Part shown: positions 33,010-39,618 of the stretch, piece after piece
How the letters are laid out: each line of letters begins with the position of its first letter
How positions within the stretch are numbered: the first letter of the stretch is position 1
Origin: an uncultured Acidimicrobiaceae bacterium
Lineage (GTDB): Bacteria > Actinomycetota > Acidimicrobiia > Acidimicrobiales > Ilumatobacteraceae
Length of the DNA stretch: 64,000 nt
NCBI GenBank assembly: GCA_903919455.1
Contig: CAIXIJ010000115.1
Coordinates: 1-64,000 of the forward strand
Direction: 5' to 3'
Notes under the pieces: generated by a model
The model's database searches: none
What the model saw: the letters and a program-made list of their open reading frames with translations, nothing else
Told to the model about the DNA's origin: nothing
Made by a program: the position numbers and the translations under genes

Positions 33010-33022
33010 ATCAGACGTCGAG

Positions 33023-33096
33023 TGGGCGTGACGGGGCTCGAACCCGGGACCTCCACCGTGTCATGGTGGCGCTCTAACCAACTGAGCTACACGCCC
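33023..33096 (-). tRNA. tRNA-Val (anticodon GAC)
   Basis: A full cloverleaf on the minus strand. The acceptor stem is GGGCGTG/CACGCCC, the D-arm is GCTC/GAGC, the anticodon stem is CCACC/GGTGG with loop ATGACAC (anticodon GAC), and the T-loop is TTCGAGC. The discriminator is A at 33023 and CCA is not encoded. The outer T-stem pair is C:U, a mismatch. The gene is alone between the PAS gene and the GGDEF-EAL gene. Confidence 0.93.
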
Positions 33097-33333: not shown

Positions 33334-35079
33334 ATGATCCGATTGATCGGTCGCACATCACATGCCAACACCACTCCCGACATGTCAATGGCGACCCTCG
33401 ACGAGGGCGCAGCACTCCTCGATGCCGTGCTGGAATCCGCACGAGCCGAAATCGCCGTGGCCGACGAATCCGGCGTGATCATTGCCACCAACAGCGCATT
33501 CCGTCGGCACTTCTTCCGCGACGGCGACCCCACTGGAATGCGCCTGGACCAACTCGTAGCACAGACCGACCAGCAACCGATGCTCGACATGCTGCACCTA
33601 CTTGCAGGCGCGCTGCACGGGTCCACCGAGCTCAGCATGTTCTCTCGCGAGACATTCCTCGACACCGATCGCTGGTACGAGGTGACGGCTGCATCGCTCG
33701 GCGATCACCCTGGTGCCGTACTGCGCGCTCACGACGTCACTGAACTCGTTCACGCGTCGCAGAACGGCAGTCATAGCCGAACACAGGACGTCCTCACCGG
33801 AGTGCTCACCGAGCAGGGCCTACGCGACGCGCTTCGCCAGGAAATGGTCCGGGCGCTCACCACTCGCTGTGTGGTGATGCTCGACATCGATCAGTTCAGC
33901 GTGATCCGCCAGACGCTCGGCTACGAAGCCGCCGATGAAACCGTTCGACAGGTGGCATTGAGCCTTCAGCGGCACGTGCCCCAGGGCGGTCACCTCGCAC
34001 GCATGATGGGCGACGAGTTCTGCATCACCTTCGAACCTCAAAGCGTGCTCGATGTGGACCAGGTGTCGTCGGCGCTTCGCGACGCGGTTCGCCAGCCCAT
34101 GACCATTCGTGGCCGCAGCGTGCGCATCACTGCGTCGGTCGGCATCACCATGACCGACCCGGACGCCAACCTCGATCTGGCGATGCAGCACGCCGAACTG
34201 GCGATGCAGGAAGCTGGCAAGCGCGGCGGCAATCGCTGTGTGGTGTACGCCCCTGAGCTCGCCGAGCCGCAAGAGGGCATGATGCGATTGTGGAACGCAC
34301 TGCGCAGCGCACTCCAGTTCCGCCAGATGGAAGTGTGGTTCCAGCCCGTGGTGAGCCTGGCAACCGATCGCCCGGTGGCGGCCGAGGCACTCTGCCGCTG
34401 GCACCACCCTCAGTTCGGCGACATCGCTCCCGGCGTCTTCATCCCGATTGCCGAACGGAACTCCGAGATCCTGAACATCGGTTCGTTCGTGCATGGCCGG
34501 TCCGCCGAGGTGATGAACGTATTGCGCTCCAGCCGCACCACCTCGCTCGGCAACTTTCAGATCTCGGTGAATGCATCGCCGAATGAACTGGCGTGGCCAG
34601 AATTTGCAAAGAACATGCTGGCCCGCATCAAGGCCAACGATGCGCTGCCGGAGTGGTTCGCGCTCGAGGTCACCGAGAAGGCTCTACAGCAGCGAGATCC
34701 CAATGTCATGGTGAACCTACAGATCATTCGTGATGCCGGCGTCACCATCTCGTTGGACGACTTCGGCACTGGCTACTCGTCGCTCGAGCGGCTTCGAGAC
34801 CTCCCGGTGGACCGCGTGAAGATCGATCGCACCTTCGTTGCCACGCTGATGGAGAACGAGCGCACAGAACGGCTGATCGCAGCCATCATCACGCTGGCCG
34901 ACGAACTCGGCATCGATACGGTCGCTGAAGGCGTCGAGACCAGCGAGCAAGCCGCCAAGCTGCGGTCGCTCGGCTGCAAGTCTGCACAAGGTTTCCTCTT
35001 CGCTCCCGCCGTTCCCGACAGCGAACTGGTGGCAGTGCTACGCGATCTCTCCACTGCCAGCGCCCGCCGGCCCTGGTGA
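33334..35079 (+). CDS. GGDEF-EAL cyclic-di-GMP protein, probably phosphodiesterase
   Basis: A 581-residue protein. Residues about 22-140 form a PAS-like sensor (ARAEIAVADESGVIIATNSA). Residues 150-305 are a GGDEF domain whose signature is MGDEF (225-229), and the nucleotide-binding IND position reads IRQ, so cyclase activity is doubtful. Residues 320-575 are an EAL domain with Q337, EAL at 351-353, N413, E445, DDFGTG at 475-480, K496, E532 and Q552, all expected catalytic positions. It probably hydrolyses c-di-GMP with GTP or c-di-GMP sensing by the degenerate GGDEF. GGAGAG precedes the ATG. No membrane segment is seen. Confidence 0.9.
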   Translation: MIRLIGRTSHANTTPDMSMATLDEGAALLDAVLESARAEIAVADESGVIIATNSAFRRHFFRDGDPTGMRLDQLVAQTDQQPMLDMLHLLAGALHGSTELSMFSRETFLDTDRWYEVTAASLGDHPGAVLRAHDVTELVHASQNGSHSRTQDVLTGVLTEQGLRDALRQEMVRALTTRCVVMLDIDQFSVIRQTLGYEAADETVRQVALSLQRHVPQGGHLARMMGDEFCITFEPQSVLDVDQVSSALRDAVRQPMTIRGRSVRITASVGITMTDPDANLDLAMQHAELAMQEAGKRGGNRCVVYAPELAEPQEGMMRLWNALRSALQFRQMEVWFQPVVSLATDRPVAAEALCRWHHPQFGDIAPGVFIPIAERNSEILNIGSFVHGRSAEVMNVLRSSRTTSLGNFQISVNASPNELAWPEFAKNMLARIKANDALPEWFALEVTEKALQQRDPNVMVNLQIIRDAGVTISLDDFGTGYSSLERLRDLPVDRVKIDRTFVATLMENERTERLIAAIITLADELGIDTVAEGVETSEQAAKLRSLGCKSAQGFLFAPAVPDSELVAVLRDLSTASARRPW

Positions 35080-35089
35080 CCGCGCTGCG

Positions 35090-36118
35090 TCAACGGATGC
35101 GCAGCGCCACTTCGTTCGCCAGCAAACGCCCCTGACGGGTGAGACGGGCAGTACCGGCTTCCACGTCGACCAGCGTGTCGAGGCCATCGAGGTCGAGGGC
35201 CTCGGACGGAATGCCGTCGCGCATACGAAGACGCAGTTGCAAGCCTTCGACGCGGCGGGTGTCGTCATCGAGGGTCTCCCCTGCCGCCTCGGTGGTCTCC
35301 CCTGCCTCGACAGCTGCGCAGTAGCGCTCCGGGGTACGCAGATTCCACCAACGGCGTCCGGATCGATGGCTGTGAGCCGCACAACCAACACCCAGATAGT
35401 CGCCCTGCTGCCAGTACAACACGTTGTGTCGGCATTCGTGACCCGGTTGCGCCCAGTTGCTCACCTCATAGTTCGAGAGCCCTGCAGCGGTGAGCAGATC
35501 GTCGGCGAGTTCGTACTTGTCGGCAAGGTCATCATCGTCAGGGTGGCGATGCGGTTCGTCGAACAGTGGAGTGCCTGCTTCCACCGTGAGGGCATAGGCA
35601 GACACGTGCGTGGGGCCCAACTCGAGCGCCCGGTCGAGCGTGACGCGCCAATCGTCGAGCGTTTCGCCCGCTCCGCCGTAGATGAGATCGAGGTTGAAGG
35701 TGGCGATCCCTGCCGCACGGACAGCGGCCACTGCATGTTCCACATTCGTGGGCACATGGCTGCGACCAAGCGCTTCCAGCACGTGCGGCACCATCGATTG
35801 CACCCCGATGCTCACACGGTTCACGCCTGCCTCTGCGTAGATCGTCATCATTTCGGCGGTGACGTCGTCGGGATTGCATTCCACGGTCATCTCGAACCCC
35901 GGAGCCACCGGGATGCATGCCAGCACCGCCGCGAGCGCTCGTGGGTCCACCAGCGTGGGCGTACCGCCACCAACGAACACACTCGACACCGGGGGCAAGC
36001 ACGCTCGTTCTATCTCCGTGCGGAGCGCCGCCAGATAGCGGTCCTGCAGATGATGCCGATCCGTCCAGGTGGCAAAGGCGCAGTAGTCGCACCGATGCGC
36101 GCAGAACGGAATGTGCAC
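35090..36118 (-). CDS. hemW: radical SAM protein HemW (coproporphyrinogen oxidase-like)
   Basis: At least 342 residues. It has the radical-SAM cluster motif CAHRCDYCAF (CxxxCxxC), then FVGGGTPTLVDP and NLDLIYGGAGETLDDW, and the C-terminal HemN-like domain. HemW is a haem chaperone for respiratory proteins. From GTG 36118 the protein starts MHIPFC, truncating the first strand normally seen as YVHIPFC. Fourteen more in-frame codons (SLPQISPDAFGVY) run back to a CTG at 36160-36158 that overlaps the bldD stop as CTGA; the true start may be there. There is no ATG, GTG or TTG in that extension. Confidence 0.9.
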   Translation of the reverse strand: MHIPFCAHRCDYCAFATWTDRHHLQDRYLAALRTEIERACLPPVSSVFVGGGTPTLVDPRALAAVLACIPVAPGFEMTVECNPDDVTAEMMTIYAEAGVNRVSIGVQSMVPHVLEALGRSHVPTNVEHAVAAVRAAGIATFNLDLIYGGAGETLDDWRVTLDRALELGPTHVSAYALTVEAGTPLFDEPHRHPDDDDLADKYELADDLLTAAGLSNYEVSNWAQPGHECRHNVLYWQQGDYLGVGCAAHSHRSGRRWWNLRTPERYCAAVEAGETTEAAGETLDDDTRRVEGLQLRLRMRDGIPSEALDLDGLDTLVDVEAGTARLTRQGRLLANEVALRIR

Positions 36119-36156
36119 ATAGACGCCGAAGGCGTCGGGGGAAATCTGGGGAAGGC

Positions 36157-36663
36157 TCAGGGGCGGTACAGCAGGTCGAGCGCATCGAGGCGCTGGCCCA
36201 CCTGATCGACCGGCACGTCGAGCATGGCGGAGATGGCGCGGGTGTCATCGCCGCGGACCGTGATGACCTTGCCATTGAAGTCTTGACGCTGCACCTGGAT
36301 CATCTTCAAGAAACGGGTGAGCATTTCGAAGGGCTGACCCGAGAGCTGACTGAGCTTGAGCAGGTCGACAGCCAACTTCTTGCGAGCTTCAGCTTCGCCA
36401 TCGGCGGCCGGCACTGCGTCTTCGCGAGGCAGCAACTGGTCGACGGGCACGTTGTAGAACTTCGCCAGACGCTCGAGGCGCGGCACGGAGATAGCCCGCT
36501 CGCCGCGTTCGTACGCGCCGAGCACCGACGCCTTGAACTCCTCGTTCGACGTGGCCTCCACTTCCTGCAGGGAAAGACGCTTCTGACGGCGGATGACGCG
36601 GAGTCGATCGCCTACCTTGCGGCTGTACGGCGAAGAAGCGACGTCGTCGTCGAAATCGCGCAT
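36157..36663 (-). CDS. bldD: BldD-family c-di-GMP-responsive regulator
   Basis: A 168-residue orthologue of Streptomyces BldD. Residues 11-80 form an XRE-type helix-turn-helix (SPYSRKVGDRLRVIRRQKRL, then VLGAYERGERAISVPRLERL, then FYNVPVDQLLPR). Residues 96-168 form the C-terminal domain, which holds the exact c-di-GMP signature RxD-x8-RxxD: R126-Q-D128, eight residues, R137-G-D-D140. In Streptomyces this site binds four c-di-GMP molecules to dimerise the repressor. Start is ATG 36663 (GTG 36669 is also possible), and GGGAGA lies upstream. A c-di-GMP phosphodiesterase-like gene is 1.1 kb away. Confidence 0.9.
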   Translation of the reverse strand: MRDFDDDVASSPYSRKVGDRLRVIRRQKRLSLQEVEATSNEEFKASVLGAYERGERAISVPRLERLAKFYNVPVDQLLPREDAVPAADGEAEARKKLAVDLLKLSQLSGQPFEMLTRFLKMIQVQRQDFNGKVITVRGDDTRAISAMLDVPVDQVGQRLDALDLLYRP

Positions 36664-36795
36664 GTTCACGTGGCCGTCTCCCAGAAGGTGCGAACGGGAA
36701 CAACCCGTCCTGTGGTGGATACAACGCACAGTGTGGCACGCCGAGAGGAAATCCGCAACGGTGTGTGAAAGGCCAACACGCTCCGTTGAGATTCT

Positions 36796-39579
<2,784 letters not shown>

Positions 39580-39618
39580 CGAAATCCCTCGGACGTCACG
39601 GTCGGTTGGCACTCGAGC

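Follow-up and report, generated by a model that had tools for sequence, protein, structure and literature searches.

A BldD-family regulator with a complete c-di-GMP signature in the hrcA-dnaJ neighborhood of an uncultured Ilumatobacteraceae bacterium

In Streptomyces, the read-out of cyclic di-GMP (c-di-GMP) by the regulator BldD restrains spore formation. What such a protein might do outside the model genera is the question raised by a 64,000-nucleotide stretch of DNA, hereafter the window (GenBank assembly GCA_903919455.1, contig CAIXIJ010000115.1, positions 1 to 64,000), from an uncultured bacterium of the Ilumatobacteraceae, in which a bldD-like gene is found two genes away from a gene for a GGDEF-EAL protein. 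The original prediction regarded the former as a BldD ortholog with a complete c-di-GMP signature and the pair as suggestive of a local c-di-GMP circuit. Our analysis favors a vertically inherited bldD whose product would bind DNA in a c-di-GMP-dependent manner via this signature and repress its own promoter, a reading to which we assign a probability of about 0.7, while the GGDEF-EAL enzyme looks like a passing neighbor.

The reading frame belongs to the minus strand (36663-36157), a detail missing from the original prediction, and the plus strand of the same interval encodes nothing BldD-like. A phmmer search against the sequences of solved structures (E<=0.01) retrieved six sequences that together cover both BldD domains and belong to structures whose titles name BldD; the DNA-binding domain matched 2EWT (E=3.9e-17) and the C-terminal domain the corresponding BldD entries (E of about 5e-7). 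Pfam recognized HTH_3/HTH_31 and BldD-like_C (PF21179, 54.5 bits with a cut-off of 27), and the AlphaFold model (mean predicted local distance difference test score of 79, predicted template modeling score of 0.46) is most similar to 4OB4 (template modeling [TM] score of 0.92 by target), followed by structures of the BldD C-terminal domain with c-di-GMP, e.g., 5KHD (TM 0.80). This two-domain match exceeds chance by far, and the alignment with BldD structures for which the original prediction had called supports a true relative of BldD. The protein shares the helix-turn-helix (HTH) and BldD-like C-terminal domains, the RxD-x8-RxxD motif and the predicted fold with BldD of Streptomyces coelicolor and Streptomyces venezuelae, the identities amounting to 54% for the DNA-binding domain and to 30-33% for the C-terminal domain. 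Its nearest named matches, with identities down to 82%, stem from metagenome-assembled genomes labeled Actinomycetota, Acidimicrobiaceae, Ilumatobacteraceae, etc., and the isolate Ilumatobacter nonamiensis has a BldD with 71% identity, which makes the Ilumatobacteraceae the very probable family. A BldD match was present in 51 of 61 genomes of relatives, two of which (G018 and G030) gave weak matches only (near 1e-4).

The signature itself reads exactly as predicted, with R126-Q-D128, eight residues and R137-G-D-D140. Regarding the other c-di-GMP contact residues listed for Streptomyces BldD (PMC4151990), K84, I110, N118 and R130 correspond to K96, I122, N130 and R142 in the window protein, and S123 is conservatively exchanged for T135. 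In 55 proteins from relatives, which include seven second copies, the equivalents of R114, D116, R125 and D128 were found in 54, 53, 55 and 54 cases, respectively, and that of N118 in 51; the position of S123 is occupied by T in 47 and by S in 5, and that of K84 by K or R in only 34. The motif, whose loss in close relatives had been named as a refutation, is thus mostly retained. Its four residues are invariant in all 80 named loci, some of whose organisms overlap with the set of relatives, and 106 of the 116 genomes that combine a readable BldD with credible GGDEF genes retain the motif, which argues for inheritance rather than chance. The analysis thus supports the prediction that the full c-di-GMP signature extends beyond the model genera, and most of the sampled order has preserved it. 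The motif was lost in G022 (D to E), G037, G040, G251, G230, G066, G081, G162, G204, G314, G384, G191, G211 and G130.

The distribution of GGDEF genes points in the same direction. In an even sample of 396 genomes of the phylum, BldD was detected in 131 (profile A1, E<=1e-15) and GGDEF domains in 357, the counts per genome being lower bounds where they are near 9 (at least 9). GGDEF genes occur in 130 of the 131 genomes with BldD versus 227 of the 265 without it (Fisher test, 2.6e-6, kinship not corrected for), and the sole BldD genome without a GGDEF match (G314, 98% complete) has kept the HTH domain and lacks the motif. Taken together with the pattern of motif losses, this co-occurrence supports, without proving it, the view that c-di-GMP maintains the motif. 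An alternative is a BldD that still binds DNA and no longer uses c-di-GMP, with the motif persisting for structural reasons. BldD proteins without the motif do persist in GGDEF-bearing genomes (G037, G040, G251, G066, G081 and others), so that the gene can be retained even where c-di-GMP is not bound; however, the complete set of signature and contact residues in the window protein (with T for S123), the invariance of the motif in the named loci and the near-universal presence of GGDEF genes in BldD genomes make a ligand-free regulator rather improbable here.

The second line of evidence comes from the promoter. The published BldD box is TNAC-N5-GTNA (PMC4151990), and the aligned upstream regions of the genus reveal two sites that match it in part and are 20 bp apart (CAACGGAGCGTGT at -125 and TCACACACCGTTG at -105 in the case of the window); this arrangement recurs in six further genomes (G007, G009, G014, G010, G003 and G011). 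Streptomyces bldD likewise has such sites in its promoter, with a spacing of 15 bp instead of 20 bp, as seen in three loci of the Streptomyces type in our sample (L263, L267 and L290, with a DNA-binding domain as in 2EWT), each with two boxes ahead of bldD. For a systematic count, an AC-N5-GT core that matched one or more outer bases was scored as a box if it lay no further than 200 bp upstream of the gene, and expectations were taken from 300 dinucleotide shuffles. Of the 214 loci, 210 were usable, and 188 distinct ones were kept after identical proteins had been dropped; the four loci without a usable start were L084 (G005, frame-broken), L277 (G130, without the motif), L287 (G419) and L288 (G142), the latter two matching the motif by pattern. 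Boxes were present at 32 of 55 loci of relatives (12.6 expected, shuffle maximum 21), at 31 of 48 without second copies and at 21 of 35 outside the window's own genus. The phylum loci showed boxes in 40 of 75 cases (14.9 expected, shuffle maximum 29), including 26 full boxes versus 1.8 expected. Control regions from the same loci contained a box-like site in 19 of 185 cases (hemW 9/37, rsmE 2/42, dnaJ 1/43, hrcA 5/39, photolyase 2/24; Fisher test against the bldD regions 1.5e-12, near-identical genomes counted apart), or in 21 of 204 when small control groups were added. This enrichment supports a conserved autoregulation, and the targets of the BldD of the window probably include, as a minimum, the bldD gene itself.

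Gene order provides the third line of evidence. The conserved neighborhood is hrcA-dnaJ-rsmE-bldD(-hemW) (Table 1), in contrast to efp-nusB/pyrR in Streptomyces, and it is this comparison with related genomes, proposed in the original prediction, that separates the stable part of the locus from the variable one. In 47 of 56 regions of relatives, bldD is flanked by matches to hrcA, dnaJ, rsmE or hemW; the remaining nine comprise seven second copies, G050 and a locus without a bldD match (L088). Outside the class, the hrcA-dnaJ-rsmE context recurs in several families, next to a divergent groES-groEL context in ten genomes and the efp-nusB/pyrR context of the Streptomyces type. For a tree of 108 sequences, eight near-identical genomes of the own genus and all rows below 110 bits (except G314 and G230) were left out. 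Of its rows, 87 could be labeled with a recognized context, the other 21 being set aside, and 81 of the 87 place bldD near hrcA/dnaJ (71 rows, with hrcA and/or dnaJ) or groES-groEL (10 rows), with efp-nusB/pyrR accounting for 6. Only two changes of context are needed on this tree, 55 of whose 105 inner branches are weak, which points to vertical descent. Additional copies behave differently in single genomes: only one of the five BldD-family copies of G024 (L051, L057, L071, L076 and L080) is located at the hrcA-dnaJ cluster, and the two copies of G426 (L237 and L281) are found behind hrcA-dnaJ-rsmE and about 1.1 kb from groES.

Table 1. Features of the bldD region, in coordinates of the window
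Positions	Strand	Feature	Basis
33334..35079	+	protein with PAS, GGDEF (site MGDEF) and EAL (residues intact) domains; gene convergent to hemW	Pfam, residue reading
35090..36118	-	hemW, directly downstream of bldD	TIGR00539, 267 bits (cut-off 205.4)
36157..36663	-	bldD, BldD-family regulator of 168 amino acids; HTH about 10-79, BldD-like C-terminal domain 96-165	domain and structure matches
36244..36288	-	coding segment for RQD-x8-RGDD, the c-di-GMP signature from R126 to D140	sequence, alignment
36722..36734	-	possible third site, ACAC-N5-GTTG, core only	
36756..36768	-	BldD-box-like site 2, about 105 bp before the ATG; TCAC-N5-GTTG, matching at one outer base	
36776..36788	-	BldD-box-like site 1, core AC-N5-GT, no outer base matched	genus upstream alignment
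36796..37461	-	rsmE-type RNA methyltransferase, upstream neighbor, 132-bp gap to bldD	
37458..38600	-	dnaJ	
38575..39612	-	hrcA	

Based on these observations and on the Streptomyces model, in which a BldD dimer takes up four c-di-GMP molecules and binds DNA in response, the BldD of the window would most likely bind clustered c-di-GMP through its RxD-x8-RxxD signature, which would pair two C-terminal domains and allow the HTH domains to hold DNA of the TNAC-N5-GTNA type. At a minimum, the dimer is expected to repress its own promoter via the tandem of boxes located 105 to 125 bp upstream of the ATG. The ligand would presumably be drawn from the cell-wide pool, since the genome (3.55 Mb) encodes 14 GGDEF and 12 EAL domains; a high level would keep BldD on the DNA, and a fall would release it. 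The gene belongs to the old hrcA-dnaJ-rsmE-bldD(-hemW) cluster and is probably cotranscribed with hemW, whose true start may even overlap bldD, because the frame is open upstream of the listed GTG into the end of bldD (36118-36157).

Several findings weigh against an autoregulated, c-di-GMP-responsive BldD. The protein misses the NCBI BldD equivalog NF050110 (143.5 versus 250 bits), although this cut-off is a naming threshold and not a functional feature, and it bars the equivalog label rather than membership in the BldD family. The boxes in the window are weak, with no full TNAC-N5-GTNA among them, the number of full boxes in relatives (5 versus 1.5 expected) is not significant given a shuffle maximum of 7, and the stricter pattern TNACNCNGNGTNA is not over-represented genome-wide (15 sites versus 18 for the reversed-pattern control). 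Moreover, several of the control regions are located inside an operon and are therefore coding DNA rather than true promoters. The named loci as a set show no enrichment of boxes (11 of 58 versus 14.0 expected), with boxes in 18 of 33 loci of the subset L103-L135 versus 4 of 47 in L136-L182. This shortfall is likely due to lineages with a short rsmE-bldD gap: boxes were found in 8 of 44 loci in which bldD begins less than 70 bp after rsmE (one absurd gap, L147, counted among the short ones) versus 33 of 53 otherwise. In such compact lineages, bldD may be transcribed from the chaperone operon. Finally, the motif has been lost in 10 of the 116 GGDEF-bearing genomes with a readable BldD. A readable BldD was available for 120 genomes, with G055 (incomplete or broken) and every other lettered copy set aside. 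In this set, the loss is more frequent where a GGDEF match is weak or missing (best E above 1e-30; 3 of 4, namely of G314, G230, G384 and G039, versus 10 of 116; p=0.0038), yet this association rests on four genomes and ignores kinship, and a tree-based test of motif loss versus GGDEF loss gave no support (p=1, too few independent pairs). The remaining genome of the four, G039, has kept the four signature residues but not N118, and has no EAL match.

The stable neighborhood raises the possibility that BldD mainly couples c-di-GMP to the adjacent heat-shock chaperone loci and that its role in sporulation is derived. The prevalence of hrcA, dnaJ and groES-groEL in the labeled contexts would agree with such a stress regulator, as would the ten genomes in which bldD is divergent from groES-groEL (L249-L252, L256-L259, L262 and L264) and the shared intergenic region contains a BldD-like box; a repeat resembling the controlling inverted repeat of chaperone expression (CIRCE) is present on the groES side in L251, L252 and L257. 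However, with the exception of L262, most of these boxes are situated on the side of bldD, so that autoregulation fits better than a control of groES. Box-like sites are scarce upstream of hrcA, dnaJ and rsmE, and a stable chromosomal region alone may explain the conserved gene order. A primary function in chaperone control is thus about as unlikely as a ligand-free BldD. A broader evolutionary scenario, which we consider doubtful but somewhat less so, is that the ancestral BldD was an autoregulated, c-di-GMP-responsive regulator bound to chaperone loci in early Actinomycetota, that sporulation control in Streptomyces was co-opted after a move to efp-nusB/pyr, and that the family of the window would still work from the hrcA-dnaJ cluster.

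The least tenable proposal is the local circuit, in which the GGDEF-EAL protein would serve as a dedicated phosphodiesterase lowering c-di-GMP for BldD or would itself be a BldD target. As predicted, its gene is the second one downstream of bldD, with hemW in between, and the product (Pfam: EAL 210 bits, GGDEF 84 bits, PAS_4) contains all residues that we take to be the EAL catalytic set (EAL, N, E, DDFGTG, K, AEGVE and QG); its MGDEF deviates from the GG(D/E)EF active site of diguanylate cyclases. The gene is convergent and therefore not part of the hemW operon, and on the opposite strand it shares no promoter with bldD. Within the genus, an ortholog adjoins hemW in 4 of 15 genomes (G000, G007, G009 and G002), all with intact EAL residues apart from DDYG for DDFG in G009, and another three (G003, G010 and G014) have one within about 12 kb of bldD; G014 and G003 even encode a different GGDEF-EAL protein (28-31% identity) directly beyond hemW. 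The other eight genomes, four of which are less than 80% complete, yielded only paralog-level best matches (31-34% identity), although seven of them have bldD or a piece of it. The GGDEF site, compared in all orthologs but that of G003, is degenerate, with MGDEF, MGDEF, GDQF and GDTF in the four orthologs adjoining hemW; it is lost in G010 and G014, which also lack the first D of the catalytic DDFG. The promoter of the GGDEF-EAL gene in the window contains no BldD-like box that matches an outer base, and the single boxes with an outer base in G007 and G009 do not share their position. By arithmetic, about 2% of genes would be expected to have a GGDEF gene at a distance of no more than 3 kb; a chance pairing is therefore mildly unlikely, although this one was singled out after the fact. 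The genome has 13 further GGDEF matches, and given its 14 GGDEF and 12 EAL domains, the adjacency needs no special reason. While the conservation of the hrcA-dnaJ-rsmE-bldD(-hemW) neighborhood and the c-di-GMP signature outside the model genera stand, the local circuit is thus rejected on the basis of gene order, site degeneracy and the lack of such a box in the promoter, and we consider it very unlikely. A tRNA-Val gene (gac; 33022-33096, minus strand) is located just upstream of the GGDEF-EAL gene.

Orthologs of bldD beyond the sporulating genera have been noticed before. A review from 2013-14 reported a convincing one in Acidimicrobium ferrooxidans, i.e., in the same class as the named matches of the window protein, inferred the presence of bldD in very early actinobacteria and considered roles in growth and stationary phase possible in simpler organisms, at a time when the signal for BldD was not yet known (PMC4255298). 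Its account of the Acidimicrobium gene mentions neither the motif nor an operator nor a chaperone linkage, and hrcA and dnaJ are absent from its main text. Tschowri et al. described the motif as strictly conserved across sporulating actinomycetes and pointed out that GGDEF proteins accompany BldD in actinomycetes (PMC4151990), and a later review described a conservation of bldD throughout the sporulating Actinobacteria (PMC7985256). Among the open-licence papers listed by our searches, no title or abstract opening dealt with the motif, the operator or a chaperone linkage of BldD in organisms other than sporulators. The ortholog in Acidimicrobium and the inferred early presence are hence already known; the present analysis adds the class-wide occurrence of the motif and its natural losses, a candidate operator beyond Streptomyces and the contexts linked to chaperones. 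If our interpretation is correct, the c-di-GMP brake on Streptomyces sporulation is older than this role, the BldD switch probably operates in many uncultured actinobacteria, and the role of BldD before sporulation becomes testable with a conserved operator, a conserved motif and the natural motif losses in hand (G314, G230 and G384). The sporulation marker SsgA was detected in 0 of 61 genomes, but in none of the 14 controls either.

A comparable case is the RsiG-WhiG switch, likewise a developmental c-di-GMP switch of Streptomyces found beyond sporulators, namely in non-sporulating actinobacteria and in three of four Acidimicrobiales species (PMC8325347); in contrast to BldD, it relies on another protein family and a sigma/anti-sigma mechanism. 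The genome of the window contains a WhiG/FliA-type sigma gene (L327, contig C41; 253.9 bits, above the family cut-off), which adjoins an M23-peptidase gene and, judged by eye, is preceded by a recombinase-like frame and followed by an rpsB-like frame.

A genome-wide regulon defined by the pattern TNACNCNGNGTNA was rejected, its count not being above that of the reversed-pattern control. Three of the 15 sites are located in promoter-like gaps outside the genes called by a simple in-house gene caller (L295, L297 and L307). In L295 (1501-1513, contig C17), a full BldD box precedes an L,D-transpeptidase-like gene (P0006), of which 13 of 15 genus genomes have a homolog; the box is full at the same place in G007 and half-matching in G002, and none is present there in G009 or the other loci compared, so this gene is a lead only as a BldD target. 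The site in L297 (1501-1513, contig C23) precedes a subtilase gene by about 85 bp and forms a palindrome, TCACGCTGCGTGA, that is perfect except for its center.

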